A stretch of DNA of 64,000 nucleotides from Dactylosporangium sp. AC04546 (lineage in GTDB: Bacteria > Actinomycetota > Actinomycetes > Mycobacteriales > Micromonosporaceae). A program made the translations under genes and the position numbers. This document shows, in pieces, positions 12,850-64,000 of this stretch. The notes under the pieces were generated by a model that made no database searches, was not told the DNA's origin, and saw nothing but the letters and a program-made list of their open reading frames with translations. The stretch spans positions 186,001-250,000 of the forward strand of contig NZ_JAHYSG010000002.1 of assembly GCF_022095675.1 (NCBI RefSeq). Reading direction: 5' to 3'. Position 1 is the first letter of the stretch; each line of letters starts with the position of its first letter.

Positions 12850-15560
<2,711 letters not shown>

Positions 15561-15683
15561 GGCTACCTCGGGTCAGGCGACGCATCGTCGCGGGCCGGAC
15601 GGCTGACGGCTCTAGTAATGTCCTAGCCAAGAATTAGCCGTCTTCTAATTATCCTGTAATCATGCTTGGACCCGGGCGTGACG
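15561..15683 (-). promoter_or_regulatory. AT-rich gap upstream of the liv genes, possible promoter
   Basis: The region between the split-barrel gene and livHMG contains an AT-rich core at about 15613-15665 with TAATTATCC-like stretches, unusual in this GC-rich window. It could give the transporter its own promoter within a longer esterase-crotonase operon. No clear hexamer pair is assigned. Confidence 0.3.
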
Positions 15684-16166
15684 TCAACCACTCCGGCGCG
15701 GTTTCGGCGCCGGGTTCTTGCGGAAGTCCCAGCTCACCAGCCGGGCGGGGCGCATCCGGAGCCAGGCGTGGCGGCCGTCGGCCACAAAGTCGGGCGTGCC
15801 GGAGTACTTCTCCGCGTAACGACGCTCGACGCCGGCGAGCTCCGGTCGCGGCTCGGACGTCCTGGGTACCTCCGAGGCCACCTCCACCGCACCGGACAGC
15901 TCGACGCCGCGCAGCTCGTCGAACTCCTCCCCGGCGTCGACGACCACGGAGACTCGAGGGTCCCGCTGCAGGTCGGCCCACCGCTGGCTGCGCAAGACGG
16001 AGTTCAGCCACAGGGCTGAGCCGTCCCAGACGAACCAGAGCGGCACCACGTGGGGGTGCCCGCCGGCGCTGATCGTGGCCACCCGGCAGACCCGCTCGGC
16101 GGCCAGGAAGGCGTCCACCTCGTCGGGGGTCATCGCGATCGACCGGCCGCGTCGCTGCTGCCTCAC
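15684..16166 (-). CDS. Pyridoxamine-5-phosphate-oxidase-like split-barrel protein (FMN or F420)
   Basis: A 160-residue split beta-barrel flavoprotein of the PPOX/F420 family. Typical features are RVATISAGGHPHVVPLWF at the start and a central WADLQRDPRVSVVVDAG. These proteins bind FMN, F420 or heme and carry out small redox steps. The GTG at 16166 was chosen because it forms a GTGA overlap with the crotonase stop; an internal ATG 11 codons later is the alternative. A second member is at 59370-59834. The transported or degraded compound of this operon is unknown. Confidence 0.82.
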   Translation of the reverse strand: MRQQRRGRSIAMTPDEVDAFLAAERVCRVATISAGGHPHVVPLWFVWDGSALWLNSVLRSQRWADLQRDPRVSVVVDAGEEFDELRGVELSGAVEVASEVPRTSEPRPELAGVERRYAEKYSGTPDFVADGRHAWLRMRPARLVSWDFRKNPAPKPRRSG

Positions 16167-16945
16167 CCGAGTACCGTCCTGCGGACGTCGTTGTCGGGGA
16201 CCCAGCGCGGGGCTCGGCGCTGGACGAAGGCGGCGTTGCCCTCGGTGCGGTCGTCCGAGCTCAGCAGTGTGGTCATCGCGGTGTGCGTGGCCGCCCAGCC
16301 GGCCTCGTCGCCGGCGGCCGCCAGCGCGTGCAGCCCGGTGAACAACTCGGCCACCGCCTCGGGCGCGCCGACACATGTGGCCAGGGCCAGGTCCAGCGCC
16401 ACGGCGAGCACGTCCTTCGTCTCGGTCAGCCGGTTCGCCAGCCCGAGCTGGTAGGCCCGCTCCGCCTCGAGTCTTCCGGCGGTGAGCATCAGCTCGACGG
16501 CGACGTTGCGCGGCAGCCGGTCCGGCGCCCGGAACAGGCCCCCGGCCGCGGGCACGCGCCCGCGTGTGGTCTCGGGCAGCGCAAACCAGGCGTCGCGGGC
16601 GGCCACCACCAGGTCGGCCGCGAGCACCAGCTCGAACCCGCCGCCCAGCGCCGGCCCGCCGACCGCGGCCACCAGTGGCTTGCGCCGCCGGCGGCGGATC
16701 ACGCCGTACATCCCGCCCCGTTCGGTGTGCGGCCCGGCACCCGTCCGCAGGTCGGTGCCGGCGCAGAAGAACGGCCCCTCGGCCGCGAGCACGCCGACCC
16801 GCAGCGCGGGGTCGTCGTCGAGCCGGTCGAACGCGACATCGAGGGCGAGGGTCATCTCGGCGTTCATCGCGTTGCGCTTCTCCGGGCGGTCCAGCGTGAC
16901 CAGCAGGACCGGGCCTCGCGTCTCGATCCGCACGAAGTCACTCAC
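16163..16945 (-). CDS. Enoyl-CoA hydratase (crotonase family)
   Basis: A 260-residue crotonase. FCAGTDLRTG gives the first oxyanion-hole region, GGGFELVLAADL holds the first catalytic Glu and FALPET the second, so both glutamates of a classical hydratase are present, unlike the crotonases at 2576 and 19931. It should hydrate 2-enoyl-CoA in beta-oxidation. The start GTG at 16945 begins the conserved strand VRIETRGPVLLVTLDRPEK. It lies 56 bases after the esterase gene and overlaps the split-barrel gene by four bases. Confidence 0.9.
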   Translation of the reverse strand: MSDFVRIETRGPVLLVTLDRPEKRNAMNAEMTLALDVAFDRLDDDPALRVGVLAAEGPFFCAGTDLRTGAGPHTERGGMYGVIRRRRRKPLVAAVGGPALGGGFELVLAADLVVAARDAWFALPETTRGRVPAAGGLFRAPDRLPRNVAVELMLTAGRLEAERAYQLGLANRLTETKDVLAVALDLALATCVGAPEAVAELFTGLHALAAAGDEAGWAATHTAMTTLLSSDDRTEGNAAFVQRRAPRWVPDNDVRRTVLG

Positions 16946-17001
16946 CGAACGCCTCGCTCCCAAGCCACCCGGACAGCCTCGCGTCGAGGACCAGCATCGC
17001 G

Positions 17002-18465
17002 TCAGAAGTCCCGGCCGGCCCAAGCCTCGCGGGCCTCCGCCCACGGATCGCGCACCGTCTCGCTCGGCGCCCCGAAGCGGCGGACCGTCCCGGCCACGCC
17101 GTGGACCGGCCACCCCGGGTCGCCGTCGCGGACGAAGGCCACCCAGGCGGCGTGTACCTCGTCGGCCACGGCCTGCGGGGCGTCGGTGCCACGCAGCTCG
17201 ATGCCCCAGGGATCGTCGAGGGTGTCGAAGACGAACGGGACCTCGAGGGTGTGGCAGGCGCCGACCCGACCGTCGTACGTCGAGGGCCGCCAGGCGAACT
17301 GGTAGGCGTACGTGCCCGACCGGCGCGCGGCGACGAGCCGCTCGGTGGGGGCGACGCAGAACCAGTCGGACTGGATCGCGACGAACAGCTCGGCCGGGCC
17401 GGCGTCCGGTCGCCGGGCACGGTAGGTCGCGATCATCGCGTCAGGGTCGGGGCAGATCCGCGAGGTGGTGGCCCGCAGGGCGTCCTCGGTCAGCTTGTCC
17501 CACATCCCGGTGGGGGCGACGAAGAGGCCGTACTCCTCGGCGTTGGCGCCGATCAGCAGGTCGACGTCGGCACACGCGCCGGCGGCTATGGCCGCGAAGG
17601 GATGCTCGGGGAGGATGTCGCCGTCGACGACCGGCTGGAAGGTCAGTCGCGTGAAGCCGGCGAACCGCGGGTCCTGGCCGGAGGTCAACCGGTTCATCAC
17701 GGCGTTGCTCGCCTCGTGCAGCCGGTCTTCCGGCACCGCGGCGATCGCCTCGGCCGTCGGCCCGGTCCCCAGCTCGCTGGCCAGCTCGGCCGCCACCAGC
17801 CGCGCCCGCTCGACGGTGTGGACGTGGTGGGCGGTGCCGCTCTGTGAGATCGCCCGGCGGAACAGCCCCTGGGCCCGCGGCACGGCCAGCAGCGTGCAGA
17901 CGGCCATCGCGCCCGCCGACTCCCCGGAGATCGTCACCCGGGCCGGGTCGCCCCCGAAGGCCGCGATCTCGGCCTGGACCCACTGCAGGGCGGCGACGAT
18001 GTCGAGCAGACCCCGGTTGGCGACGGCGTCCGGGAAGAACCCGAAACCCTCGGCGGCCAGGCGGTAGTTGATCGTCACCGCGACGACGCCGTCCCGGGCG
18101 AACGCCGTGCCGTCGAAGGCGGTGGTCGAGCCGGCTCCGGTGGCGAATCCACCGCCGTGCACGAAGACCAGGACGGGCGCCCGGCCCGCGACGTCGGGGG
18201 TCCAGACGTTCAGGTTCAGACCGTTGGGCCCGGGACGTCTCGGGTCCGGCAGGAGGGCGTCCATCACAGCCGATCGCTGCGGCGGGGTGGAGACCGTGGC
18301 GCCGTACCGCGTCGCGTCGGCGACGCCCTCGTGCGGCTCCGGCGGGCGGGGCGCCGCGAACCGTGCCTCGCCGATGGGGGCGGCCGCGTACGGGATCCCC
18401 TTGAAGGACCAGCCGCTGCTCGTCGGTGCGCCACGGAAGGTGCCCTGCCGGGTGGTCACATCCAC
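17002..18465 (-). CDS. Carboxylesterase type B family hydrolase
   Basis: A 487-residue alpha/beta hydrolase. The oxyanion motif HGGGF is at 103-107, the nucleophile Ser183 is in GESAGA, a Glu at about 310 in ANAEEYG is the acid and His405 in ACHTLEVPF the base. No signal peptide is visible, so it is cytosolic. It could open an ester or lactone made by a Baeyer-Villiger monooxygenase. The GTG at 18465 is preferred because GAGGAG is seven bases upstream; a TTG five codons earlier is part of that site. It leads the minus-strand set esterase, crotonase, split-barrel, liv and diverges from the HtaA gene. Confidence 0.9.
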   Translation of the reverse strand: MDVTTRQGTFRGAPTSSGWSFKGIPYAAAPIGEARFAAPRPPEPHEGVADATRYGATVSTPPQRSAVMDALLPDPRRPGPNGLNLNVWTPDVAGRAPVLVFVHGGGFATGAGSTTAFDGTAFARDGVVAVTINYRLAAEGFGFFPDAVANRGLLDIVAALQWVQAEIAAFGGDPARVTISGESAGAMAVCTLLAVPRAQGLFRRAISQSGTAHHVHTVERARLVAAELASELGTGPTAEAIAAVPEDRLHEASNAVMNRLTSGQDPRFAGFTRLTFQPVVDGDILPEHPFAAIAAGACADVDLLIGANAEEYGLFVAPTGMWDKLTEDALRATTSRICPDPDAMIATYRARRPDAGPAELFVAIQSDWFCVAPTERLVAARRSGTYAYQFAWRPSTYDGRVGACHTLEVPFVFDTLDDPWGIELRGTDAPQAVADEVHAAWVAFVRDGDPGWPVHGVAGTVRRFGAPSETVRDPWAEAREAWAGRDF

Positions 18466-18489
18466 TACTGCACTCCTCAACGAACTTCA

Positions 18490-18521
18490 ACTTGTGTTGT
18501 TATTATGCACCACCATCGCAG
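18490..18521 (+). repeat. Promoter/leader repeat, copy 1 (partner at 63342-63373)
   Basis: This 32-base stretch matches 63342-63373 at 28 of 32 positions. Both copies share ACTTGT, TTG, TATTATG and ACCATCGCAG in the same order and spacing. Here it lies 21 bases before the ATG of an HtaA-domain gene; the other lies 66 bases before an acyl-CoA ligase gene. TATTAT resembles a -10 box. Confidence 0.75.
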
Positions 18522-18542
18522 ACGCGCGGAAGGTCGTGCCCC

Positions 18543-19055
18543 ATGCCCTTGGACGAGGTATCCCGGACCCTGACCGCGCCCGGCGGAGCGTTCCCGCCGG
18601 CGCAGCTCGAGTGCCGCGAGCTGCGCTGGAGCGTCCGCACCAGCTTCTTCCGGTACCTCGCCGGGCTGCGCGACGGTCGCGCCTCGGTCTCCGGCGGCGC
18701 GGCCCTCACTGCGGACGACCCACAGCTCGTGGTCTACCCGGCCGACCCCGACCGAAGCGACGGCGGCGTACTGGCCTTCCGCGGCGACCTCCGGCTGGGC
18801 GGCCACGGCGGCCTGCTGTTCGTCCGCCTGGCGAACCCGCGGATCAGGCTCGGGACCCCGGCCGTCCTCTCGGTCGACGATCCGCTGACGGAGGACGGCA
18901 GCGGTCCACGGCTTGACCTGGTCACGCTGCGGTTGGCCGCCGACGACGAGGGCGGCTGGTCCGGCACCGACGTGCAGCTCACCGAGGCCGGCGTCGGGCT
19001 GTTCAACCACGTCTACGCCGCGGGCGACGCGTTCGATCCCCTGACCGTGCGCTGA
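18543..19055 (+). CDS. HtaA-domain protein without signal peptide, with ligase-like N-terminus
   Basis: A 170-residue single-domain protein. From residue 27 it follows the HtaA pattern: LRWSVRTSFFRYL, then a strand FRGDLRLGGHGGLLFVRL, and the end LFNHVYAAGDAFDPL. Tyr38, His88 and Tyr158 fall where the Corynebacterium HtaA domains carry their conserved heme-contacting Tyr/His/Tyr. Corynebacterial HtaA is exported and membrane-anchored, but this protein has no signal peptide or anchor and should be cytosolic. Residues 1-19 (MPLDEVSRTLTAPGGAFPP) do not belong to that domain and match the start of the acyl-CoA ligase at 63440. It lies alone between a divergent esterase and a convergent SDR. Heme handling, or an unknown role in catabolism, are both possible. 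A second copy is at 42989. Confidence 0.78.
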   Translation: MPLDEVSRTLTAPGGAFPPAQLECRELRWSVRTSFFRYLAGLRDGRASVSGGAALTADDPQLVVYPADPDRSDGGVLAFRGDLRLGGHGGLLFVRLANPRIRLGTPAVLSVDDPLTEDGSGPRLDLVTLRLAADDEGGWSGTDVQLTEAGVGLFNHVYAAGDAFDPLTVR

Positions 19056-19100
19056 CGGCAGCAATGATCGATGGCGTCGGGCCCGCGGTCGTCGCCCGTC

Positions 19101-19934
19101 TCAGGCCTTGCGCTCCGGCTCGGGTGAGCTGACGTTGAACAGCACGTGGTTACCTCCGTCGACGACGATCGACTCGCCGGTGACGTGCCCGGACAGCGGC
19201 GAGAGCAGGAACAGCAGCACACCGGCGATGTCCGACGGGTAGGCCAGCTTGCCCAGCGGCGTCTTGTCGATGTTGGCCTGCACGAGCTCAGGGGTCCAGC
19301 GCGGGTTGGCCTGCTGGCGCGGCGTCCGGATGGTGCCCGGCGCCACCGCGTTGACCCGGACCCCGAGCGGACCCAGCTCCACCGCTGACGTCCGGACCAA
19401 GGACATGAGTGCCGCCTTCATCGCCCCGTACGCGGCCAGCTTGGGCGAGCTGCCCAGCCCGGCCACCGACGCGACGAAGGCCATCGAGCCTCCGGTGCCG
19501 GTGCGCTCCCAGAACTTCGCGGCATAGCTGATCGCCAGGTACGCGTGCTTGAGCACGATGTCGACGTGGAACAGCCAGTCGTCGTCGGACAGGTCCTGGA
19601 CCTGCTTGTAGATCGACAGCCCGACGATGTCGACGACGCCGTCGAGGCGCCCGCACCGCTCGTCCACGAAGTCGAACAGGGCCGCCATCGAGTCACGGTC
19701 GGTGATGTCGCCCGTCCAGGCAATGCCGCCGACCTCGGCCGCCACCTTCTCGGCCCGCTCCTGGTCACGGTCGACGCACACCACTGTGGCGCCGAAGGCG
19801 CACAGCGCGTGCGCCGTCTGCCGCCCGATGCCGAAGCCGGCGCCCAGGACGACGTGCACCTGGCCGTCGAGCCGCATCAGGCTCGCGTAGTCGGGCGTCC
19901 AGTCGGCGTCCCGATCGGTCCACGACGCTGTCAT
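19101..19934 (-). CDS. Short-chain dehydrogenase/reductase (SDR)
   Basis: A 277-residue SDR with the cofactor motif GAGFGIG at 31-37, an acidic residue after strand 2 (VCVDRD) suggesting NAD, a Ser near 156, Tyr169 and Lys173 in the YGAMK box, and a C-terminal VTGESIVVDGG. A 24-residue N-terminal extension precedes the Rossmann fold. The ATG at 19934 overlaps the crotonase stop as ATGA. It is the last gene of the operon aldehyde dehydrogenase, cyclase-family hydrolase, crotonase, SDR, so it may oxidise a 3-hydroxyacyl-CoA made by the crotonase. Confidence 0.9.
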   Translation of the reverse strand: MTASWTDRDADWTPDYASLMRLDGQVHVVLGAGFGIGRQTAHALCAFGATVVCVDRDQERAEKVAAEVGGIAWTGDITDRDSMAALFDFVDERCGRLDGVVDIVGLSIYKQVQDLSDDDWLFHVDIVLKHAYLAISYAAKFWERTGTGGSMAFVASVAGLGSSPKLAAYGAMKAALMSLVRTSAVELGPLGVRVNAVAPGTIRTPRQQANPRWTPELVQANIDKTPLGKLAYPSDIAGVLLFLLSPLSGHVTGESIVVDGGNHVLFNVSSPEPERKA

Positions 19935-20845
19935 CGGGCCGCCTCCGCCGCCAGCGGGTCCTGGTCCGGCTTGGCCGATGCGGCCCCCTTGCGCCAGTCC
20001 ACAGCCCCGTCCTCGATCGTCGCGTGCGCCACCCGCCCGCCGTGGATCTCGGCCCAGTGCGCGTGGTTGATCTGATGCAGGCTGAAGCAGGCCTGGAGCG
20101 AGTTGTAGAAGCCCATGTTGTCCTGGGTCTGGTTGACCGCCTCCTTGATCATCAAGGCGGTCACGGTCGGCCGCTTGGCGATCTCGCGGGCGTACTGCAG
20201 GGTCCGCTCGACCAGCTCGCCGGCCGGGAAGATCTGGCTGACCATGCCGATCCGATGGGCCTCGTCGATGCTGACGCTCCCGCCGGTGAGCATCAGCTCC
20301 TTGGTCCGTCGCAGGCCGAACTCCCACGGGTGGGCGAAGTACTCGACACCGCACATGCCCAGCCGCGTGCCGACGGGGTCGGAGAACGTCGTGCCCTCGG
20401 CACCGACGATCAGGTCGCAGGACCACGCGAAGGTCAAGCCGGCCGCGTGGACAGGCCCCTGCACCGAACAGATGGTGATCTTGCGCAGGTTCCGCCACCG
20501 GAGCGAGTTCTGGTAGTAGTAGTGCCACTCCTGGACCATGCGCTTCTCGGCGCTGACCTTGGTGGCCCCGTTGAGCTGGAACGTCGGGTGCTGCTCGAGT
20601 CCCTCGGCCCGCTCCACCGCCCGCTCCGGCGTGCCCATGTCGTGGCCGGAGGAGAACGTCATGCCGTTGCCGGCGAGGATCACCACGCGCACCGTGTCGT
20701 CCGCCTCCGCCCGGAGCATCGCCTCGTCCAGCTCGACGAGCAGGCTGCGGCTCTGGGCGTTGCGGTAGCGCGGCCGGTTCAGCGTGATCCGGGCGATGGT
20801 CCCCTCGTCGAGCAGTTCGTAGGTGATGAACCGGTAGTCCGGCAT
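19931..20845 (-). CDS. Crotonase family protein lacking both hydratase glutamates
   Basis: A 304-residue crotonase-fold protein. The first oxyanion segment is FSSGHDMGT and the second is HAAGLTFAWSCDL, where the usual first Glu is Thr; the second Glu region reads FSDPVGTRLG. Both hydratase glutamates are thus absent, so another crotonase reaction is likely, for example isomerisation, C-C hydrolysis or decarboxylation. The ATG at 20845 has an excellent AGGAGG eight bases upstream; a GTG nine codons earlier overlaps the cyclase stop but lacks such a site. The SDR gene overlaps its end. The insertion EYFAHPWEFGLRR is shared in style with the 2576 crotonase. Confidence 0.86.
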   Translation of the reverse strand: MPDYRFITYELLDEGTIARITLNRPRYRNAQSRSLLVELDEAMLRAEADDTVRVVILAGNGMTFSSGHDMGTPERAVERAEGLEQHPTFQLNGATKVSAEKRMVQEWHYYYQNSLRWRNLRKITICSVQGPVHAAGLTFAWSCDLIVGAEGTTFSDPVGTRLGMCGVEYFAHPWEFGLRRTKELMLTGGSVSIDEAHRIGMVSQIFPAGELVERTLQYAREIAKRPTVTALMIKEAVNQTQDNMGFYNSLQACFSLHQINHAHWAEIHGGRVAHATIEDGAVDWRKGAASAKPDQDPLAAEAAR

Positions 20846-20868
20846 GGTGGTCCCTCCTGGGGGATCGG

Positions 20869-21855
20869 TCACTTGACGGCGATCGGGTTGAGCGGCGATC
20901 CGACCGCCCCCGTCACGGTGAGCGGCTGTGCGCTCAGGAAGAACTCGTAGACGCCGTCGGCAGCACAGTCCGCGGCCAGTTCCTCGAGGTCCCAGATCTC
21001 CCCGATCAGCACACCGGCGTTGACCAGGAAGATCACGTGCAGGGCGAACTTGGCCTCGGGCAGGGACTCGCTCGGCACGCTCTCCAGTCCCCAGGTGTCA
21101 CCCGCGACCGCGGCGATCTCCCGCGGCAGCAGGTAGTCGGCGCTGCTGACACCGAGGCCGGGCGCGGGACCGGCGGCGTAGTCGCCCCAGTGCTCCTGCC
21201 CCTCGGCCCTGCGCCGGCGCATGTGGCCGGTGCGGATCAGGACGATGTCGCCCGGGCCGATCTCGACGCCCTGGGCCTTCGCGCACGCCTCGAGGTCGAC
21301 GTCCTGGATGGCGTCGCCGGGCTCCAGCCAGTCGACGCCGTAGAACCGTGGGAAGTCGAGCAGGACGCCGCGGCCGACCACCCGGTCGGCCACCTGGGCG
21401 ATGCTGTTGTGGACCGCGCCTTGGCTGGTCACGCTCTCGGGACCGTGCCCGTTGTAGGTGACGCCGTCGTAGAAGACGTGGCAGAAGGCGTCCCACTGGG
21501 TGGCGCACTGCAACGGCATGTAGATGCCGTCGTCGGTGGACTGCATGCCGTGCCGGGCGTTCTCCCAGTCGGCCAGCAGGTCACCCCCGTGCTTGTACAT
21601 CTGGTGCTGAGGGTTCACACGCGCTGTCCGGGAGGGCATGGGTCCGTTGCGGTCGAGCGGGATGGCCAGGGAGAACGTCCTGCCCGTGCGCACCAGCGCG
21701 GCCGCCGCAGCCACCCGTTCGGCAGTGATGTGGTTGAGCGCGCCGGCCTCGTCGCCGGCCCCCCACCTGCCCCAGGTGCGGTAGTGCAGCGCAAGCGCGT
21801 CGAGCTCGGCCTTGGTGTACCGGCGACGGGGTGAGACGGTGCGACGGGTGCTGAT
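20869..21855 (-). CDS. Cyclase-family (kynurenine-formamidase-like) metal hydrolase, unusual start
   Basis: A protein of the cyclase/KynB-like family (PF04199 type), with ATQWDAFCHVF as metal-site motif and GVLLDFPRFYGVDWL. These hydrolases cleave amides, lactones or ring ketones. The first standard start (GTG at 21714) would remove the conserved TWGRWGAGDEAGALNHIT segment, which family members need, so translation must start earlier. In that frame there is no ATG, GTG or TTG, but ATC at 21855 lies seven bases after GAGGAG. I therefore give the longer gene (328 residues) with a possible ATC start. A mutated start codon is the alternative. It lies 103 bases after the aldehyde dehydrogenase and 23 before the crotonase. 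Confidence 0.72.
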   Translation of the reverse strand: MSTRRTVSPRRRYTKAELDALALHYRTWGRWGAGDEAGALNHITAERVAAAAALVRTGRTFSLAIPLDRNGPMPSRTARVNPQHQMYKHGGDLLADWENARHGMQSTDDGIYMPLQCATQWDAFCHVFYDGVTYNGHGPESVTSQGAVHNSIAQVADRVVGRGVLLDFPRFYGVDWLEPGDAIQDVDLEACAKAQGVEIGPGDIVLIRTGHMRRRRAEGQEHWGDYAAGPAPGLGVSSADYLLPREIAAVAGDTWGLESVPSESLPEAKFALHVIFLVNAGVLIGEIWDLEELAADCAADGVYEFFLSAQPLTVTGAVGSPLNPIAVK

Positions 21856-21958
21856 CGGAACGCTCCTCGGTGCGCAGGGACTGCTGCGGCAGTGGATCGG
21901 GTCGGCCCGCCCGGCCCGTCTCGTCGGTGAGCCGGGCGGGCCGGGGTTCAGGCGGGGT

Positions 21959-23353
21959 TCAGACGGGGAAGCCGTACGTCTTGAGGTTCGCGAACATGTC
22001 GATGCCGGTGCGGCCGCCCAGCTCGCGACCGACGCCGGAGCGCTTGGTGCCGCCGAACGGCGCCTCGGTCGGCGAGCCCAGGAAGGTGTTCACCCCGACG
22101 CCGCCGGTGTCGAGCCGGCCGGCCACCGCCAGCGCTTCCTCGGCCGCACCGAAGACAGCACCGCCGAGGCCGTAGGGGCTGTCGTTGGCGAGCCGCACCG
22201 CGGCCTCGGTGTCCGCCACCCGGTAGACCACGCCGAGCGGGCCGAACGCCTCCTCCCGGTAGAGCCGCATCTCCCGGGTGACGCCGGTGATCACCGCGGG
22301 CTTGAAGAACGACCCCGGCCCGTCGATCCTGCCGCCCTCCAGCAGTACCGTGGCGCCCTTGGCGACGGCGTCGTCAAGCTGCTCCTGCAGCAGGTCGGCC
22401 GCGGCCTGGCTGGACATCGGGCCGACGGTCACCGTCTCGTCGAACGGGTCGCCCACCACCTGAGCAGCGAATGCGGCGACGTACTTCTCGGTGAAGGCGT
22501 CGGCGACGCCCTCGGTGGCGATGACCCGCTTGGGCAGCGCGCACGCCTGCCCACCCAGCACGAGACGGCAGGTGGCGGCGGTGCCGGCGGCGAGGTCGAC
22601 GTCGGCCGAGTCCAGCACGATGAAGGCGTCGGAGCCGCCCAGCTCCAGGACCACCGGCTTGATGTGCCGGCTGGCCTGCTCGCCGACGGCCGAGCCCGCA
22701 CGGTCGGAGCCGGTGAGCGTGACCGCGCGGACACGGTCGTCGGCGATCAGCGTCGAAACCTGGTCGGTCGAGACCAGGATGGTCTGGTAGCAGCCCTCGG
22801 GGAAGCCGGCCTCACGGAAGATCTCGTCGAACATCAGCGTCGAGCCGGGGCAGATCTCGGCCGGCTTCACCATCACGGTGTTGCCGAGGATCAGGTTGGG
22901 GGCGGTGGCCCGCATCGCCTGGTAGAGCGGCGCGTTCCACGGCTCGATCCCGAGGACGACGCCGACCGGCTCGCGGCGCAGCACCAGCTTCGAGAAGCCG
23001 GCCGACTCGATCACCTCGTCGGCGAGCTGGGCCTCGCCGTGCTCGGCGTAGTAGCGGAACATGCTCACCGCACCGGCGCCCTCGCCCAGGGAGTACGGGA
23101 GGATCTTGCCCATCTCCAGCGTGGCCTGCCGGGCCAGCTCCGGGAGCCTGGCCTCGATCAGGTCGGCCACCCTGACGAACAGCGCGACGCGCTCGGCGAT
23201 CGGCACCTCCCGCCAGGTCAGATAGGCCTGGTGGGCCAGGGCCAGCTTGGCCTCCAGCTCATCGCCGCTCAGGAACGGGTACTCGCGCAGGGTCTCACCG
23301 GTGGCGGGGTTGTGCGTCCGGTACGTACGGGTCGTGGGGATCGTTGCGGTCAC
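21959..23353 (-). CDS. NAD(P)-dependent aldehyde dehydrogenase
   Basis: A 464-residue aldehyde dehydrogenase close to succinate-semialdehyde dehydrogenases. Catalytic Cys271 is in GGQACAL, the general base Glu237 in LELGGSDAF, and Lys163 in MVKPAE binds cofactor. It converts aldehydes to acids in the cytosol. The GTG at 23353 was chosen because AGGAGG lies six bases before it; an upstream GTG seven codons earlier would place that site inside the gene. It leads the minus-strand operon that continues with the cyclase-family hydrolase, crotonase and SDR, and diverges from the P450 at 23509. Confidence 0.92.
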   Translation of the reverse strand: MTATIPTTRTYRTHNPATGETLREYPFLSGDELEAKLALAHQAYLTWREVPIAERVALFVRVADLIEARLPELARQATLEMGKILPYSLGEGAGAVSMFRYYAEHGEAQLADEVIESAGFSKLVLRREPVGVVLGIEPWNAPLYQAMRATAPNLILGNTVMVKPAEICPGSTLMFDEIFREAGFPEGCYQTILVSTDQVSTLIADDRVRAVTLTGSDRAGSAVGEQASRHIKPVVLELGGSDAFIVLDSADVDLAAGTAATCRLVLGGQACALPKRVIATEGVADAFTEKYVAAFAAQVVGDPFDETVTVGPMSSQAAADLLQEQLDDAVAKGATVLLEGGRIDGPGSFFKPAVITGVTREMRLYREEAFGPLGVVYRVADTEAAVRLANDSPYGLGGAVFGAAEEALAVAGRLDTGGVGVNTFLGSPTEAPFGGTKRSGVGRELGGRTGIDMFANLKTYGFPV

Positions 23354-23411
23354 CGGAGTCCTCCTGGCGGGCACGTCGCTGTGATGGTCGAGGGCAGCTC
23401 TATTCGATGCA

Positions 23412-23454
23412 AACCATAATGCAGCCTTGCTCTTGCGGCCAGACCATGATGGTT
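23412..23454. promoter_or_regulatory. Inverted repeat in divergent promoter
   Basis: AACCATAATG (23412-23421) and CATGATGGTT (23445-23454) form an inverted repeat matching at nine of ten positions with 23 bases between. It is between the divergent aldehyde dehydrogenase and P450 starts, a normal place for a dimeric repressor site. Part of it resembles the TACCATAAYT element found at other promoters here. Confidence 0.42.
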
Positions 23455-23508
23455 ACAGGATAAGTAGAACCACAGTTGTGCGCGTCCGACCCGCCATCGA
23501 GGTGCCGC

Positions 23509-24726
23509 ATGGAGATCGACCTGCTCGACCCCGCCCACTACGTCGTGGGACAGCCCTACGAGCTCTACAAATGGCTGCGCGAGAACGACCCGGTGCACTG
23601 GCACGCGGAGCACGACGGCGGCCCCGGCTTCTACGCCCTCACCCGGTACGCGGACGTCAAGGCGCTGGAGACGGACTCGGACACCTATGGCAACGCCCCG
23701 ACCACGCTGATCAGCGACACGGCCGTACAGGGGGACGCGACCCACCAGCACCTGATCTTCTCCGACCCGCCGCACCACACCCCGCACCGCAGGCTGCTCA
23801 GCCCGGAGCTCAGCGTAATGGCGGTCCGGTCCCAGCAGGACGTGCTGGAAGGGCTGGTCAACGACATCATCGACCGCGTCATCGAGAAGGGGGAGTGCAA
23901 CTTCGTCGACGACATCGCGGGCCGGATGGCCAGCTTCGTCATGGCGGACCTGATCGGCCTCCCGCGCGAGCAGTCGCTGGTGATGTTCGACGCCGCGGCC
24001 ACCCTGGCCCGGGGCACCGATCCGTCCTACGGCATCGGTGCCGAGGCCATCTCGACGCTCTACTCCTGGGCCAGCGACGCCTACCGGGAGCGGGTGGCTG
24101 AGCCCCGCGAGGACATGCTGACGAAGATCGCCCACGCGGAGGTCCTGGACATCCCGTTCGACGAGCACCAGTTCCAGCTGGACTTCCAGCTGCTGGTCTC
24201 GGCCGGCAGCGACACCTCGCGCAACGTGCTCGCCACCGGCATGATCCGACTGTTCCAGCACCCCGAGGCGCACCGCGCACTCGTCGAGGACCCGTCGCTG
24301 GTGCCCCAGGCGGTGGAGGAGATGCTGCGGTTCGACCCGCCCATCGTGTTCCAGCGCCGCACCGCCACGCGCGACGCCGAGTTCGCCGGTGTCGCCGTGA
24401 CCAAGGGGACCAAGCTGGTCAGCTACTACGGCGCGGCCAACCGGGACCCGGAGATGTTCGCCGACCCGGACACCTTCGACATCCACCGTTCTCCCAACCC
24501 GCACCTCGCGTTCGGCGCCGGGCGGCACTTCTGCCTCGGCTCGCACCTGGCCCGGGCCGAACTGGTGACCATGTTCACGGCACTGGTCACGCGGCTGCCC
24601 GACCTGCGCCCGGCCGGCGAGGTGGCGTGGCACCAGCACCCGCAGACCCCCTCGGTGGTGGGGCCGTTCGAGATCCCGGTCCGTTTCACCCCGGGCGAGC
24701 GGGTCGGGGACACCGACCTCGCCTGA
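23509..24726 (+). CDS. Cytochrome P450
   Basis: A 405-residue class I P450 with a canonical I-helix AGSDTS at 232-237, the ExxR helix EEMLRF and the heme loop FGAGRHFCLGS with Cys342 as ligand. It needs a ferredoxin and ferredoxin reductase, likely those at 11004 and 37805. The ATG at 23509 has GAGGTG upstream; an in-frame start 11 codons earlier lacks a site. It leads a plus-strand operon of acyl-CoA dehydrogenases, a GMC oxidoreductase, a MaoC hydratase and a CitE-type lyase, which suggests hydroxylation of a side chain or ring that is then cut as a CoA ester. Confidence 0.93.
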   Translation: MEIDLLDPAHYVVGQPYELYKWLRENDPVHWHAEHDGGPGFYALTRYADVKALETDSDTYGNAPTTLISDTAVQGDATHQHLIFSDPPHHTPHRRLLSPELSVMAVRSQQDVLEGLVNDIIDRVIEKGECNFVDDIAGRMASFVMADLIGLPREQSLVMFDAAATLARGTDPSYGIGAEAISTLYSWASDAYRERVAEPREDMLTKIAHAEVLDIPFDEHQFQLDFQLLVSAGSDTSRNVLATGMIRLFQHPEAHRALVEDPSLVPQAVEEMLRFDPPIVFQRRTATRDAEFAGVAVTKGTKLVSYYGAANRDPEMFADPDTFDIHRSPNPHLAFGAGRHFCLGSHLARAELVTMFTALVTRLPDLRPAGEVAWHQHPQTPSVVGPFEIPVRFTPGERVGDTDLA

Positions 24727-24751
24727 ACCCAGCATATGATGCTCATGTTAT

Positions 24752-24770
24752 GTTGAAATAGTTCTTCAAC
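24752..24770. promoter_or_regulatory. Short palindrome between P450 and acyl-CoA dehydrogenase genes
   Basis: GTTGAA (24752-24757) and TTCAAC (24765-24770) are perfect inverted arms seven bases apart in a 72-base AT-rich gap. The half-site ACTTCAAC also occurs in the gaps before 5093, 18543 and 41448. It may be an internal operator or a weak promoter region. Confidence 0.33.
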
Positions 24771-24798
24771 GTCGCCCTTGTCGCTACCTAGGAGCCCG

Positions 24799-25995
24799 AT
24801 GACCGCATCGCCGGCGACCATGCCCGACGCCGAGCTGGTCGAGGCCACCGCCCGCCGGGTGGTGGCCGAGCACCCGCCCACCTCGACGCCGCTCCCGGAG
24901 CTGATGGGCGCCTGGTACGACGCCGGGCTGACCTGGGTGCACTTCCCGGTCGGGCTCGGCGGCCGGGACGCACCCCGCGCCCTGCAGCCGCTGGCCAACC
25001 GGGTGATGCGGGAGGCCGGCGGGCCCGAGCCCCGGACGGTGAACACCATCGGCTACGGCATCGTGGCCGGCACGATCCGCCGCTACGCGGACCGGGAGTT
25101 CGCCGCGCGCCGGCTGCGCCCGCTGGCCACCGGCGAGGAGAAGTGGTGCCAGCTGTTCAGCGAGCCGGGCGCCGGGTCCGACCTGGCCGGCCTGGCCACC
25201 CGTGCGGTCCGCCACGGCGACGGCTGGCAGGTGAACGGCCAGAAGGTCTGGAACAGCCTGGCCCACCTCTCCCGCTGGGCGATCCTGCTGGCCCGCACCG
25301 ATCCCGACGTGCCGAAGCACAAGGGCCTGACCTACTTCGTGGTCGACATGCGGTCTGCGGGAATCACCGTGCGGCCGCTGCGCCAGATCACCGGGCGGGC
25401 CGCGTTCAACGAGGTGTTCCTCGACAACGTGTTCATCCCTGACAGCCAGCGGTTCGGCGAGGTCGGTGACGGCTGGATCGTCGCCAACAGCACCCTCGGC
25501 GACGAACGGACCTCGCTCGGCGACCGCGTGGCGGCCCGCGGCAGCGGCGTGATCGCCGACGCCCTGGCCCTGTGGGCGGCTCACCCCGAGCGCCACGACC
25601 CGGTGCTGCGGGACCGGCTGGTCCGGCTCTGGGTCCGGGCGGAGACGCAGCGGCTGACCGGCGACCGGGCCCGGGTAGCGGCCAGCAAGGGGATGGTCGG
25701 TGCCGAGAGCGCGATCATCAAGCTGCTCAACTCCGAACTGACCCAGGCGGTCTACGAGTTCTGTCTGGAACTGCTCGGCCCCGAGGGCACCCTGATCGAC
25801 ACCTACTCGCTCGACGCTCCGGACGACGAGTCCGGCCCGGCCGCGATCCAGCGCAAGTACCTGCGTTCCCGCGCCACCACGCTCGAGGGCGGCACCTCGG
25901 AGATCATGCGCAACGTCATCGGCGAACGCGTCCTCAAGCTGCCGCAGGAACTGCGCGCCGACAAGGGCGTCGCCTGGAAGGACATCCCCCGATGA
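24799..25995 (+). CDS. Acyl-CoA dehydrogenase, subunit with catalytic Glu
   Basis: A 398-residue FAD acyl-CoA dehydrogenase. It has CQLFSEPGAGSDLAGL for substrate/FAD binding and a C-terminal LEGGTSEIMRN that carries the catalytic Glu. The ATG at 24799 follows GGAG. The following gene begins inside its stop as ATGA and encodes a second, shorter acyl-CoA dehydrogenase lacking that Glu; this pairing is typical of the heterotetrameric enzymes of steroid side-chain degradation (ChsE/FadE type). It probably makes a 2,3-double bond in a bulky acyl-CoA. Confidence 0.92.
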   Translation: MTASPATMPDAELVEATARRVVAEHPPTSTPLPELMGAWYDAGLTWVHFPVGLGGRDAPRALQPLANRVMREAGGPEPRTVNTIGYGIVAGTIRRYADREFAARRLRPLATGEEKWCQLFSEPGAGSDLAGLATRAVRHGDGWQVNGQKVWNSLAHLSRWAILLARTDPDVPKHKGLTYFVVDMRSAGITVRPLRQITGRAAFNEVFLDNVFIPDSQRFGEVGDGWIVANSTLGDERTSLGDRVAARGSGVIADALALWAAHPERHDPVLRDRLVRLWVRAETQRLTGDRARVAASKGMVGAESAIIKLLNSELTQAVYEFCLELLGPEGTLIDTYSLDAPDDESGPAAIQRKYLRSRATTLEGGTSEIMRNVIGERVLKLPQELRADKGVAWKDIPR

Positions 25996-27122
25996 CGCAG
26001 GAGTTCGAGTTCGACGACGAGATCGTCGAGCTGCGCTCGATGGTGCGCGAGTTCTGCGCCGAGGTCTCCCCCGAGGCCCGGGTCCGCGAGCACATGGAGT
26101 CCGAGCTCGGCCACGACCCGGCGCTCTGGCGCCGGCTGGGCACCGACATCGGCGTCCTCGGCCTGGCGGTCCCCGAGGCGTACGGCGGCGACGACGTCGG
26201 ACTGGTCGCCCAGGCCGTCGTCGTCGAGGAGCTCGGCGCGGCCCTGGTCTGCGGTCCGGTGCTCGGCACCCTCGCCCTGGCCATGCCGACGCTGGTGGCG
26301 CTGTCCGACGAGGACGCCAAGCGCGAGCTGCTGCCGCCGCTGTGCTCCGGCGAGCGCGTGGCCACGCTGGTCGCGCCGCTCGCCACCGGAGTCCTGGACG
26401 AGGATGCCGTCACCGTCGAGGCCACCGACAACGGCGGCTGGCGGCTCACCGGCAACGTGGCCCAGGTCCCCGACGGCGCCGCCGCCGACACACTGCTGGT
26501 GCTGGCCCGCACCTCAGCCGGCATGGCGCTGTTCGCCGTGGCGGGAGGCGCCGAGGGCCTGACCCGCACCGCCCTGACCACACTCGACCTCACGCGCCGG
26601 CAGGCCGCGGTCTCCTTCGCCGCGACGCCGGCACAGCTGCTGGCCTCCGGCACCGAGGCGGTCGGCGCCGTCGAGCGGGCCGCGCTGGTGGCCTCGGTGC
26701 TGCTGGCCGTCGAGTCGGTCGGCGGGTCGCAGCGGATGCTCGACGTCACCGTCGCGCACGTCAGCACGCGCAAGCAGTTCGGCCAGCCGGTCGGCGCGTT
26801 CCAGGCGGTCAAGCACCGCTGCGCGAACCTGCTGATCGCGGTCGAGGCCGCCCGGTCGGCGGCCTACCACGGCGCCTGGGCACTGCAGGACGGCAACGAC
26901 GACCCGCGGCTCGCGGCCGGACTGGCCAAGGCCGTGGCGAGCGAGTCCTACCAGGCGGTCAGCGCCGGGGCGATCCAACTCCACGGCGGCCTCGGCTTCA
27001 CCTGGGAGGGCTCGCCCCACCTGTACTTCAAGCGGGCCAGCACCAACGGTCTGACCCTGGGCACCGCCACGCAGCACCTCGACCGGGTCGCAGCCCTGAC
27101 CCTCGACGCAGTCCCGGCCTGA
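25992..27122 (+). CDS. Acyl-CoA dehydrogenase, partner subunit
   Basis: A 376-residue acyl-CoA dehydrogenase. The middle strand LTGNVAQVPDG, the FAD helix RKQFGQPVGAFQAVKHR and the end LHGGLGFTWEGSPHLYFKRA are conserved. At the usual catalytic Glu region it has TLGTATQHLDR instead, so it is probably the non-catalytic partner of the subunit encoded just upstream, sharing FAD sites across the interface as in known alpha2-beta2 enzymes. The ATG at 25992 overlaps the previous stop. A separate homotetramer using another Glu is an alternative. Confidence 0.9.
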   Translation: MTQEFEFDDEIVELRSMVREFCAEVSPEARVREHMESELGHDPALWRRLGTDIGVLGLAVPEAYGGDDVGLVAQAVVVEELGAALVCGPVLGTLALAMPTLVALSDEDAKRELLPPLCSGERVATLVAPLATGVLDEDAVTVEATDNGGWRLTGNVAQVPDGAAADTLLVLARTSAGMALFAVAGGAEGLTRTALTTLDLTRRQAAVSFAATPAQLLASGTEAVGAVERAALVASVLLAVESVGGSQRMLDVTVAHVSTRKQFGQPVGAFQAVKHRCANLLIAVEAARSAAYHGAWALQDGNDDPRLAAGLAKAVASESYQAVSAGAIQLHGGLGFTWEGSPHLYFKRASTNGLTLGTATQHLDRVAALTLDAVPA

Positions 27123-42988: not shown

Positions 42989-43492
42989 ATGGAAGCCGGC
43001 AAGGAAGAGCGTCAGGGGCTTGTGCACGGCCTGCGGTGGGGACTGAAGAAGTCCTTCGTGGACTACGTCCGCCGGATGCCCGACGGCAAGGGGTCGGTAG
43101 GTGACGGCGCGGCGCCGGTCGGGACCGGGGACCTCTTCTACGAGCACGACGCCGGCCGGAGCGGTGCCGGGGTGTGGGCATTCCGCGGCGACGTCCGGTT
43201 CAGTGGGCACTTCGGCATGCTGTTCGTCCGCGTCGCCAACCCCTGGCTGGAGATCGACGGGAGCAGCGCGGTGCTGAGCATCGAGGATCCGCAGGCTCGG
43301 GAGGGCGCACCGCGCGTCCCGCTGGTGACGGGAACGCTGCAGCGTCTCGGCGACCACGACGGCACCGAGATCTGGGGCAGCGACGACGTTGCGCTGACGG
43401 CCGAGGGCGTCGCGCTGTTCAACGACGTCTACGCCGAAGGTGAACCGTTCGAACCGCTGGTGGTCCAGCTCCCCCGGAGCCGGTCGAGCTGA
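42989..43492 (+). CDS. HtaA-domain protein without signal peptide
   Basis: A 167-residue single HtaA domain. It begins LRWGLKKSFVDYVRRM, has FRGDVRFSGHFGMLFVRV and ends LFNDVYAEGEPFEPL. Tyr26, His74 and Tyr148 match the Tyr/His/Tyr set of heme-binding HtaA domains. It lacks a signal peptide and membrane anchor, so it should be cytosolic. The ATG at 42989 has GGGGAG upstream. It sits 71 bases after an MFS transporter and 98 before a FAD monooxygenase. The protein is homologous to the one at 18543 but without the ligase-like leader. Possible roles are heme storage or delivery to P450s, heme sensing, or a new use of the fold. Confidence 0.8.
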   Translation: MEAGKEERQGLVHGLRWGLKKSFVDYVRRMPDGKGSVGDGAAPVGTGDLFYEHDAGRSGAGVWAFRGDVRFSGHFGMLFVRVANPWLEIDGSSAVLSIEDPQAREGAPRVPLVTGTLQRLGDHDGTEIWGSDDVALTAEGVALFNDVYAEGEPFEPLVVQLPRSRSS

Positions 43493-60899: not shown

Positions 60900-62421
60900 C
60901 CGCGACAGCGCTGTGCTGCGCACCGTCATCGAGCGCAACGCCGTCGAGCGCCCCAGCCGGCCTGTCATCGAATTCGACACCGGCGAGACCTGGACGAGCG
61001 TCCAGGTGATGACGGAGGCGTACCGGGCCGCCAACGTCCTGGCGTCGCACGGCATCCGACAGGGCGGCCGGGTCGGCGTCATGCTGCCGAACGGGCCGGA
61101 CTTCGTGCGGTCCTGGTTGGGCGCCCGCTGCCTGGGGGCCGCCATCATGCCCATGAACCCGGCGCTCAAGGGCCGGATGCTCGTCCACCCCCTGGGTCTG
61201 GCCGAGCCGGACGTGGTGGTGACCACGCCCGACCAGATGACCGCCCTCCGCGAGGAGTTCCACCCCTACCGCAAGCTCGACGCCGCCGCTCTGCGCGAGG
61301 GAGCTGCTGAGGAACCGCCGTTACGGCGACCGATCGAGGTCGCCGACCCGGAGGTGATCCTGATGACCTCCGGAACGACCGGGCCTTCCAAGGTCTGGTC
61401 ATCCACGGTCATGCAGGCGTCCACCACGGGGGCGTACGTCCGCGACGGGAACCTGACCGGGGAGGATCGGTTCCTGATCGACCTTCCCCTGTTTCACACA
61501 GCCGGTCTGGGAGTCACGGCGGGATGCATGCGCTCGGGCACCGTCGCGGTCATGCGCGCCCGCCCCTCCCTGTCCCGGTACTTCGAGATCGCGCGAGAGC
61601 TGGACGTGACCGCGGGCTTCCTCGTCGGGTCGATGTCCGCGAAGCTGCTCGCCACGCCGGAGACACCGGACGACCGCCGGCACCGCATGCGGGTCATGGT
61701 CGCCGCGCCGCTGCCGCCGGACCTGCCCAGGTTCGTCGAGCGGTTCGGCATCCCCCGGATCCTCACCTCCTTCGGCAGCACCGAGACCGGTGGGCCCATC
61801 GGGTCCGGCGCCGACACGAGACTGCCCACCCCTGGCTCCGCCGGGCGAGCGCGCCCCGGCTACGGCGACTACAAGCTGGTGGACGGCGACGGTGCGGAGG
61901 TCTCCGACGGTGCGGTCGGTGAGCTGCTGCTGCGACCATCACACCCCGCGGTGTTCGAGGGACACTACCTCAAGGACCCCGACGCCACCGCCCAGGCCTG
62001 GGAGGGCGGCTGGTTCCACACGGGCGACCTCTTCCGCAGGAACGCCGACGGGGAGTACTTCTGGGCCGGCCGGGACCGCGACACGATTCGCCGTCGCGGC
62101 GAGAACATCTCGAGCTTCGAGGTCGAGCGTGAGGTGCTCCTCGAGCCCGGGGTTTCCTCGGTCGCGTGCGTCGGTGTCGAGGCTGACGACGACGTGGGCG
62201 TCGAGGTCAAGGTCTTCATCCTTGCGGCCCCGGGCGTCACGAGCATCGACTTCGAGACGATGGCGAGCAGTCTCGCCCGGCGCATGCCGCACTACATGGT
62301 GCCGCGCTACTTCGAGCTGGTGGACGAGATGCCGGTGACGGCGACCCAGAAGGTGACCAAGCACGTCCTGCGGGAACGCGGCAACAGTCACCGGACCTGG
62401 GACCGCAGGTCCCGCTCATGA
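60889..62421 (+). CDS. Acyl-CoA synthetase/AMP-dependent ligase (CaiC-like)
   Basis: A 510-residue adenylate-forming enzyme that activates an acid with ATP and CoA. The P-loop is MTSGTTGPSKVW, where the usual final Gly is Val. The A5 region reads SFGSTETGG, the hinge WAGRDRDTIRRRGENIS, and a late Lys in VTATQKVTKHV is the catalytic A10 residue. The ATG at 60889 has GGAGG seven bases upstream and overlaps the preceding gene by 11 bases. It ends inside the convergent amidohydrolase gene by six bases. Substrate unknown. Confidence 0.9.
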   Translation: MWLDRDSAVLRTVIERNAVERPSRPVIEFDTGETWTSVQVMTEAYRAANVLASHGIRQGGRVGVMLPNGPDFVRSWLGARCLGAAIMPMNPALKGRMLVHPLGLAEPDVVVTTPDQMTALREEFHPYRKLDAAALREGAAEEPPLRRPIEVADPEVILMTSGTTGPSKVWSSTVMQASTTGAYVRDGNLTGEDRFLIDLPLFHTAGLGVTAGCMRSGTVAVMRARPSLSRYFEIARELDVTAGFLVGSMSAKLLATPETPDDRRHRMRVMVAAPLPPDLPRFVERFGIPRILTSFGSTETGGPIGSGADTRLPTPGSAGRARPGYGDYKLVDGDGAEVSDGAVGELLLRPSHPAVFEGHYLKDPDATAQAWEGGWFHTGDLFRRNADGEYFWAGRDRDTIRRRGENISSFEVEREVLLEPGVSSVACVGVEADDDVGVEVKVFILAAPGVTSIDFETMASSLARRMPHYMVPRYFELVDEMPVTATQKVTKHVLRERGNSHRTWDRRSRS

Positions 62422-63279
62422 GGCGGTACCGCCGCCGAGCACCTCGGGCCAGCCGATCCAGGCCGCGAGCGCCCGGCCGGCAACCAGGGCCCGCTCTTCG
62501 TGGTCGAGCCGGGGCAGGTGGTTGACGAACACGTCGACGAGCTGCGGGTACGGCACCGGGAGGCGGGAGAGATCGGAGCCGAAGAAGACGCGCTCGGGGC
62601 CGAACGCTTCGACGAGCCGGTAGACCGCTTCCGCGATCGAGGGGAAGGGGTACGTCTCGCGCACGAAGCAGGGCAGGGCCGAGACCTTGACGGCGATGCC
62701 GGGATGCCTGGCCAGCGCCAGCAGCGGCTTGACCGCCTCCGGCAGCGGCAGCTCGTCGCTGTCGACGGCCGCGTGGTCGACGGTGACCTTGAGCCCCGGG
62801 AAGTCCTCCGCCAGCCGCTGGTACAGGGCGTACCGCCCCGGGGCATAGACACAGATCGGGATACCGCAGGCCTGGGCTGTCGCGAAGAAGCCGCTGTCGA
62901 CCGCGTCGGCGACCATGCTGTCGACGTCTCCGCGATTGAGCGACAGCCGGATCGCACGCATCCCTTCGACCTCGCGCCAGTGCGCGAGTTGCTCCACCTC
63001 GGCAGGGTCGGACGCGGGGAAGCGGCAGATCCCGCCGAAGCGGGCCGGTTGCGCCGCCGCCGTCTCGAGCACGTAGTCGTTGCGGGAACCCTCCCACGTC
63101 GGGCCCAGGATCAGGGCGCCCGAAACGCCGGCCGCATCCATGCGGCGCAGGACCTCCGGCACCTCGAGGGGTTCGGCACGCTGGGGTTCGATCGCGTCGG
63201 CGGGCCACGGCCGCTCGGGCGTGGAGGCCTTCCAGACGTGGATCTGTGCATCGACGACGATCAGGTCCGATGAACCCAC
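62416..63279 (-). CDS. Amidohydrolase-family (PF04909-like) hydrolase
   Basis: A 287-residue TIM-barrel protein of the amidohydrolase_2 group. The metal site uses DAQIHVW at the start, TVDHAAVD in the middle and FFGSDLSRL at the end. It may hydrolyse a lactone (as 2-pyrone-4,6-dicarboxylate lactonases do) or decarboxylate an acid. The GTG at 63279 has GAGGAG upstream. It diverges from the partial AMP ligase at 63440 and overlaps the convergent ligase gene by six bases. Confidence 0.87.
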   Translation of the reverse strand: MGSSDLIVVDAQIHVWKASTPERPWPADAIEPQRAEPLEVPEVLRRMDAAGVSGALILGPTWEGSRNDYVLETAAAQPARFGGICRFPASDPAEVEQLAHWREVEGMRAIRLSLNRGDVDSMVADAVDSGFFATAQACGIPICVYAPGRYALYQRLAEDFPGLKVTVDHAAVDSDELPLPEAVKPLLALARHPGIAVKVSALPCFVRETYPFPSIAEAVYRLVEAFGPERVFFGSDLSRLPVPYPQLVDVFVNHLPRLDHEERALVAGRALAAWIGWPEVLGGGTAS

Positions 63280-63341
63280 GGCGCGCCACTCCTCTCGTCA
63301 CGTCCACGGCTCGCCTGTGAGGCGGTCCGCAGCGAGGTTGA

Positions 63342-63373
63342 ACTTGTCTTGCTATTATGGAACACCATCGCAG
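63342..63373 (+). repeat. Promoter/leader repeat, copy 2 (partner at 18490-18521)
   Basis: 28 of 32 bases equal the copy before the HtaA gene. It is 66 bases before the ATG of the partial acyl-CoA ligase. TATTATGG may be a -10 box. Confidence 0.75.
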
Positions 63374-63439: not shown

Positions 63440-64000
63440 ATGCCCCTGGACGAGACGTCCCGGCTCCGCATCCTGACCGCTCCGGGCGGCCCCTTTCCCC
63501 TCACCGAACGGGTCGTCGACGGCGTCCGGCTCGAGATGTTCGACCGTGACCCGAGGACGATGCGCGATGCGTTCCTCGCCACGCTCGCGCACGGGGACCG
63601 GCCGGCGGTCGTGTACGGAGACGAACGCTGGACCTACGCGGAGCAGTGGGACATCGTGGTCGCCCTGGCCCACGCGCTGCGTGACGATCTCGGGGTCGTC
63701 AAGGGCGACCATGTCGGCATCGCCATGCGGAACTACCCGGAGTTCGTCTTCGCGTTCTGGGCCCTGGAGCTGCTCGGCGCCGTGGTGGTCCCGTTCAACG
63801 GCTGGCTGAGGACCCCTGAGCTCGCGGATCTCGTCGCGGAGGCCAGGCCGACCGTGCTCTTCGCGGACCGCGAGCGCATCGCGCTCCTGCGGGACGTGGA
63901 CCTCGCCGCAAGCGGTGTCCGCCGCGTCGTCGGAGTCCGTTGCGCAGCGAACGATGGTTCGTTCGTGGATTTCGCGGACCTGCTCACGGGGGCCGGCGCG
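63440..64000 (+). CDS. Acyl-CoA synthetase/AMP-dependent ligase, N-terminal part (cut by window edge)
   Basis: The first 187 codons of an adenylate-forming ligase, open to the window end. Visible are the AMP-ligase start (RPAVVYGDERWTYAEQWD) and GDHVGIAMRNYPEFVFAFWA with FNGWLRTPEL of the N-terminal domain. The ATP P-loop is outside. The first 21 residues (MPLDETSRLRILTAPGGPFP) match the leader of the HtaA protein at 18543, and the upstream DNA matches too. Its start has AAAGG upstream. Role: CoA activation of a carboxylic acid. Confidence 0.85.
   Translation, partial: MPLDETSRLRILTAPGGPFPLTERVVDGVRLEMFDRDPRTMRDAFLATLAHGDRPAVVYGDERWTYAEQWDIVVALAHALRDDLGVVKGDHVGIAMRNYPEFVFAFWALELLGAVVVPFNGWLRTPELADLVAEARPTVLFADRERIALLRDVDLAASGVRRVVGVRCAANDGSFVDFADLLTGAGA

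Follow-up and report, generated by a model that had tools for sequence, protein, structure and literature searches.

A stand-alone HtaA gene in Dactylosporangium sp. AC04546 that very probably arose by deletion of most of an acyl-CoA ligase gene

A deletion between co-oriented neighbouring genes removes the 3' part of the first gene together with the start of the next one, leaving a single frame under the control of the first gene. The locus described here resembles the usual deletion fusion in that it appears to have lost the 3' end of a first gene, encoding an acyl-CoA ligase, and the start of a second, encoding an HtaA domain; it differs from deletion fusions in general by keeping only ~23 residues of the first protein, and would hence amount to the second gene with a new start and not to a two-domain protein. 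Its nearest counterparts are the ligase-HtaA gene pairs of Streptomyces shenzhenensis and Pseudofrankia asymbiotica, which have in common with it the locus, the gene order, the upstream box and the HtaA gene, but which retain an intact ligase and an HtaA gene with a start codon of its own. The nearest described proteins are HtaA (6jsa) and HtaB (6jsb) of C. glutamicum, and HtaA and ChtA of C. diphtheriae, with which the new protein shares the fold and the pocket residues (S...Y, GH, Y). It differs from them in being a single short domain encoded in a catabolic cluster, the relatives' copy lying beside a CoA-ligase gene, and not in an hmu/hta heme-uptake locus. For the CR1 domain of C. diphtheriae HtaA, a 2025 paper (PMC12494546) describes an axial Tyr49 with Ser45, a helper His107 following Gly106, and Tyr197; in ChtA, according to the same paper, a Tyr replaces the helper His.

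The window, i.e. the whole stretch of DNA that was analysed, comprises 64,000 nucleotides (positions 186,001 to 250,000 of contig NZ_JAHYSG010000002.1, assembly GCF_022095675.1). It holds a catabolic cluster with genes for P450s, acyl-CoA dehydrogenases, enoyl-CoA hydratases, flavin monooxygenases and CoA transferases, several of these names having been read from start sequences and not from a family search. The features needed below are the following, L035 being the S. shenzhenensis locus and L036 that of P. asymbiotica:

16938..16997, minus strand: putative amidohydrolase remnant, 19 codons in frame, MLVLDARLSGWLGSEAFGE; its ends match L035 3912-4757 (minus strand)
17002..18459, minus strand: carboxylesterase gene, oriented divergently to the start of the ligase and located at the same place in both relatives
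18489..18521, plus strand: upstream box of the fusion gene, core TTGTGTTGTTATTATG, apparently inherited from the deleted ligase gene
18543-19055, plus strand: fusion ORF, 170 aa
18543..18610, plus strand: ligase remnant, start codon and ~23 codons, aligned to L035 6302-6375
18611..18617, plus strand: putative deletion junction, where ~1.64 kb (L035 6376-8019) are absent and the own start codon of HtaA is replaced
18618..19055, plus strand: HtaA domain (PF04213), the C-terminal 145 residues, probably once a separate gene behind the ligase
62416..63279, minus strand: amidohydrolase 2, a 68% identical paralogue of the amidohydrolase deemed deleted
63341..63373, plus strand: upstream box of ligase 2 (a paralogue), homologous to the box of the fusion gene
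63440..64000, continuing ~1.15 kb beyond the window end, plus strand: ligase 2, with 72% identity to the type of ligase that was lost

The 18543 ORF, which starts with MPLDEVSRTLTAPGGAFP, matches the PF04213 profile over residues 26-169 (3e-18, 67.4 bits against a gathering cut-off of 24). This was the sole family found in it; no AMP-binding domain was detected, the ligase remnant corresponding to a segment that precedes this domain. Ligase 2 starts with MPLDETSRLRILTAPGGPFP. An earlier note on this DNA had pointed to a start common to both proteins (MPLDE..SR..LTAPGG), to unrelated domains behind it, and to the agreement of 18490-18521 with 63342-63373 at 28 of 32 bases. The common start is real, the two proteins do continue into a PF04213 HtaA domain (18543) and an AMP-binding enzyme (63440), and a recount of the bases gave exactly the same figure; the segment, placed at 18490..18602, had been drawn a little too short, its ligase-derived part running to ~18610. 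In the HtaA frame, possible starts are an ATG at codon 1 and a TTG at codon 3, followed by none until a GTG at codon 63, and the sole ATG before the HtaA domain is that of the ligase. Position 18543 is not the only conceivable start, because two further non-ATG codons, TTG 18492 and GTG 18426, lie in frame upstream. We infer that the fusion gene uses the start codon and the promoter of the ligase.

A scan of species genomes yielded two close HtaA relatives, those of S. shenzhenensis and P. asymbiotica, and the intact pair was compared base by base in these two public loci. Over 14 kb (13028-27053), the window aligns to L035 in three blocks of 94-95% identity, and L036 matches most of this segment at ~80-88%. 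Only two gene-sized gaps separate the window from L035, a ligase gap between 18610 and 18616 and an amidohydrolase gap at ~16980, the remaining indels listed being all ≤11 bases. In both relatives, a complete ligase gene stands behind the upstream box; it begins MPLDE(V/A)SRLRILTAPGGAFP (MPLDEVSRLRILTAPGGAFP in L035, behind a like box) and has HtaA after it in the same orientation. The ligase stop and HtaA are spaced by 4 bases in L035 and ~12 in L036, and the own start of HtaA lies just before ELRW, as an ATG in L035 and apparently as a GTG in L036. L035 6302-6375, to which the remnant aligns with a 6-base in-frame gap, is the beginning of the intact 569-aa ligase, and the segment absent from the window extends from ~codon 25 of this ligase to its stop codon and also takes in the HtaA start codon, the remaining sequence being joined at 18611-18615. 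By arithmetic on coordinates, the ligase and HtaA frames of L035 are offset by one base, so that the deletion would have put HtaA into the ligase frame. L036 carries both the ligase and the amidohydrolase genes, and since this more distant relative has the intact state, the state of the window is derived. The start codon of the carboxylesterase is uncertain (18459 or 18480).

The amidohydrolase gene, intact in both relatives and encoding 281 residues in L035, is reduced in the window to its first six and last dozen or so codons, 262 codons (786 bases) below the L035 gene. Neither missing segment is present elsewhere in the assembly: the best match to the L035 ligase is ligase 2 (72%), followed by proteins at 37-38%, and the best match to the deleted amidohydrolase is amidohydrolase 2 (68%), followed by one at 37%, a search confined in both cases to what the assembly contains. 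These paralogues adjoin each other at 62.4-65.2 kb, ~45 kb from the fusion. By comparison, the relatives' genomes have one ligase of the L035 type each (at 100% and 82%, the next matches being at 38% and 42%) and one amidohydrolase match each at E≤1e-20. Among 397 genomes sampled from the window's order, in which no more than three candidates each were scored so that misses are no proof of absence, a ligase at E≤1e-150 was found in the own genome and one other (55%). Among the matches listed, the closest to ligase 2 is a Dactylosporangium protein (98%), and separate acquisition of the ligase 2 cluster would fit. Because a paralogous amidohydrolase-ligase pair resides in the same cluster, both losses were probably tolerated through redundancy. 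Two more paralogous pairs occur in the window, 35008-36618/47339-48934 (60%) and 9745-10845/36634-37743 (61%), suggesting that modules of this cluster may have been repeatedly duplicated or merged.

An AlphaFold2 model of the fusion, built on 32 sequences, has a mean pLDDT of 88.3, with residues 1-20 poorly ordered (52, 57), residues 21-40 at 83 and ten-residue means of 92-97 from residue 41 on. Foldseek returned 15 PDB chains at E≤0.001, all of them HtaA, HtaB or ChtA entries, the best being C. glutamicum HtaA 6jsa (E 9.3e-8, probability 1.00), and the HtaA part is predicted to adopt the CR-type beta-sandwich fold. Residues S34, Y38, G87, H88 and Y158 are invariant in the 32 rows of the HtaA alignment, which includes 31 of the 32 homologues (P0031 was left out). 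Their correspondence to the pocket residues was judged by alignment, not superposition, and their roles are taken from PMC12494546. By model and alignment, the protein appears to have kept both the HtaA fold and the residues of the heme pocket. Inspection by eye revealed neither a signal nor a membrane segment in the window HtaA.

Taken together, these comparisons indicate that the 170-aa ORF is, with high confidence, a fusion gene made by deletion. The ancestor would have carried the upstream box, the acyl-CoA ligase and HtaA, divergent from the carboxylesterase, both genes being intact with collinear flanks in the two relatives. In the window lineage, the loss of ~1.64 kb shown by the comparison would then have left the ligase upstream region and first codons joined in frame to HtaA, and a second in-frame deletion would have removed the amidohydrolase; short shared stretches are present near the deletion junctions. 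HtaA would most likely persist as a putatively cytosolic protein of the heme-binding type, with a floppy N-terminal extension of ~25 residues. The mechanism is ordinary, the record of gene loss unusually clear. With the states before and after both on record, this case illustrates that a short foreign leader on a protein may be the footprint of gene loss, not of domain shuffling.

The earlier note had read the locus otherwise, as a recombination that put HtaA under ligase control, with the 63440 ligase as the source of the leader. The two leaders and their boxes are truly similar, and both lie on one contig in like orientation, which would suit a copying of the promoter and start of that ligase ahead of an HtaA gene. 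Such copying is nevertheless extremely improbable. The leader coding bases match the ligase of L035 at 62 of 68 positions and that of L036 at 59 of 68, whereas its alignment to the 63440 ligase has 48 matches over 65 bases; when the upstream region is included (133 nt), these figures become 119/131, 113/133 and 100/132, respectively. In addition, the leader occupies the position where synteny puts the local ligase, the esterase and upstream region being collinear in L035 and L036, and the intact ligase-HtaA loci of both relatives already speak against copying. Since HtaA is already the next gene behind the ligase, in like orientation, in these two relatives, the event did not bring it behind the ligase promoter. 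What holds of the earlier reading is that HtaA bears foreign ligase sequence, namely the upstream box, the start codon and ~23 codons; judged by sequence, their donor is the local ligase gene, since deleted. Nor does the segment appear ancestral to HtaA proteins: the motif LT.....FP (first 70 residues) is found in 79 of 120 ligase homologues, the best 120 of 6893 matches, vs 0 of 32 HtaA homologues, and LDE.[ST]RLR.LT.P.G.FP in 19/120 vs 0/32. It is likewise very unlikely that the ligase is present in the organism and was dropped from the contig by an assembly or sequencing artefact. The assembly consists of 348 contigs with 11.5% estimated contamination (six same-genus genomes are also estimated at 4-10%), but it contains no L035-type ligase elsewhere, and the paralogue, at 72% identity, is too diverged for easy collapse. 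Moreover, the leader has its own substitutions in addition to its in-frame gap, and it is not one gene but two distinct ones that are missing, both with in-frame joins.

The deletion itself is compatible with two fates of the fusion gene, and it is possible, though on balance doubtful, that the fusion is a decaying pseudogene which lost its purpose with the ligase and stayed in frame by accident, the chance of this being 1 in 3. The HtaA part acquired 1 synonymous and 4 replacement changes on the window branch, vs 7 and 5 on the L035 branch (3 ambiguous), counts too small to show constraint or absence of constraint; with such a ratio on the window branch, the gene could be decaying since the fusion and need not be under purifying selection. 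In the same direction, the pairwise dN/dS of HtaA between window and L035 is 0.41 (0.29 between L035 and L036), vs 0.08-0.38 for nine further genes from this locus in the window-L035 comparison. Against decay, the frame is open, the fold is modelled well from residue 41 on, the upstream box and start codon are kept, and none of the four polarised replacements falls on one of the five pocket residues.

The pattern of the upstream box (26 fixed bases in 32, ≤3 mismatches) occurs at only two sites in the 13.0 Mb assembly, where the reversed-pattern control gave 0 matches, and its 19-base core (≤3 mismatches) is present in two copies in the window, compared to a mean of 0.00 over 100 shuffles. No genome-wide regulon under this box was detected, the assembly having just these two copies at ≤3 mismatches. 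The box may act as a promoter or an operator. In S. shenzhenensis, an inverted repeat GTGTTG-N8-CAACAC (L035 6254-6273) is perfect and lies over a TATTAT box; its half-sites match at 5/6 in the window and at 4/6 upstream of ligase 2. The best inverted repeat found in L036 has another offset. Because of these imperfections and of the different offset, the repeat is at best a guess at an operator, a candidate site for a regulator.

HtaA relatives are thinly spread. At E≤0.001 they were detected in 37 of 299 related genomes, mostly as weak matches to longer proteins, and at E≤1e-12 in 8 of 394 genomes sampled from the class, own genome included (at most 10 candidates scored per genome, so that misses are no proof of absence). 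Of the 32 HtaA matches, 19 are on contigs >2.3 kb, and 10 are on a contig whose size exactly equals that of one of the first 30 listed ligase matches; this suggests that ligase and HtaA often travel together, though not necessarily side by side. The more distant HtaA relatives (15 loci) have varied neighbours. A ligase of the L035 type was found near HtaA (~1.5 kb each side) at 2 of 18 loci tested, L061 and L069; with matching contig number and coordinates, both seem to represent the Pseudofrankia locus once more. Plasmid pJCM13574 of Mycolicibacterium madagascariense carries a related cluster in which an annotated HtaA gene lies behind an acyl-CoA dehydrogenase gene, ~11 kb from the ligase of that cluster. 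Clusters of this kind thus contain HtaA repeatedly, and not always in the same gene order. No plasmid was found to house the locus itself: 58 plasmid records match 18001-21000 but none over 80% of that stretch.

In two genomes HtaA lies directly behind the ligase, and in the related plasmid cluster it has another place; these occurrences point to stand-alone HtaA proteins as a group associated with catabolic clusters that contain a CoA ligase. Among the titles listed in searches of the literature, none deals with such a link. More speculatively, the stand-alone HtaA could be a working part of CoA-dependent catabolism, kept by selection through the captured promoter and start of its partner, and sharing its operator with ligase 2, a proposal that we regard as rather unlikely as a whole. 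If true, HtaA could be, for example, a cytosolic heme handler for the P450s of the pathway or a ligand-binding partner of the ligase, and would still be under one ancestral operator with the replacement ligase 45 kb away.

The HtaA of the pJCM13574 cluster (L071 17770-18297) reads VAYGG where the window protein has GGHGG, apparently with a Tyr for the helper His. The window itself contains a second stand-alone HtaA gene (42989-43492, plus strand; 46-49% identical), downstream of a gene that looks transporter-like by eye, and at another HtaA locus (L007) a large ORF with a transporter-like start lies beside HtaA.
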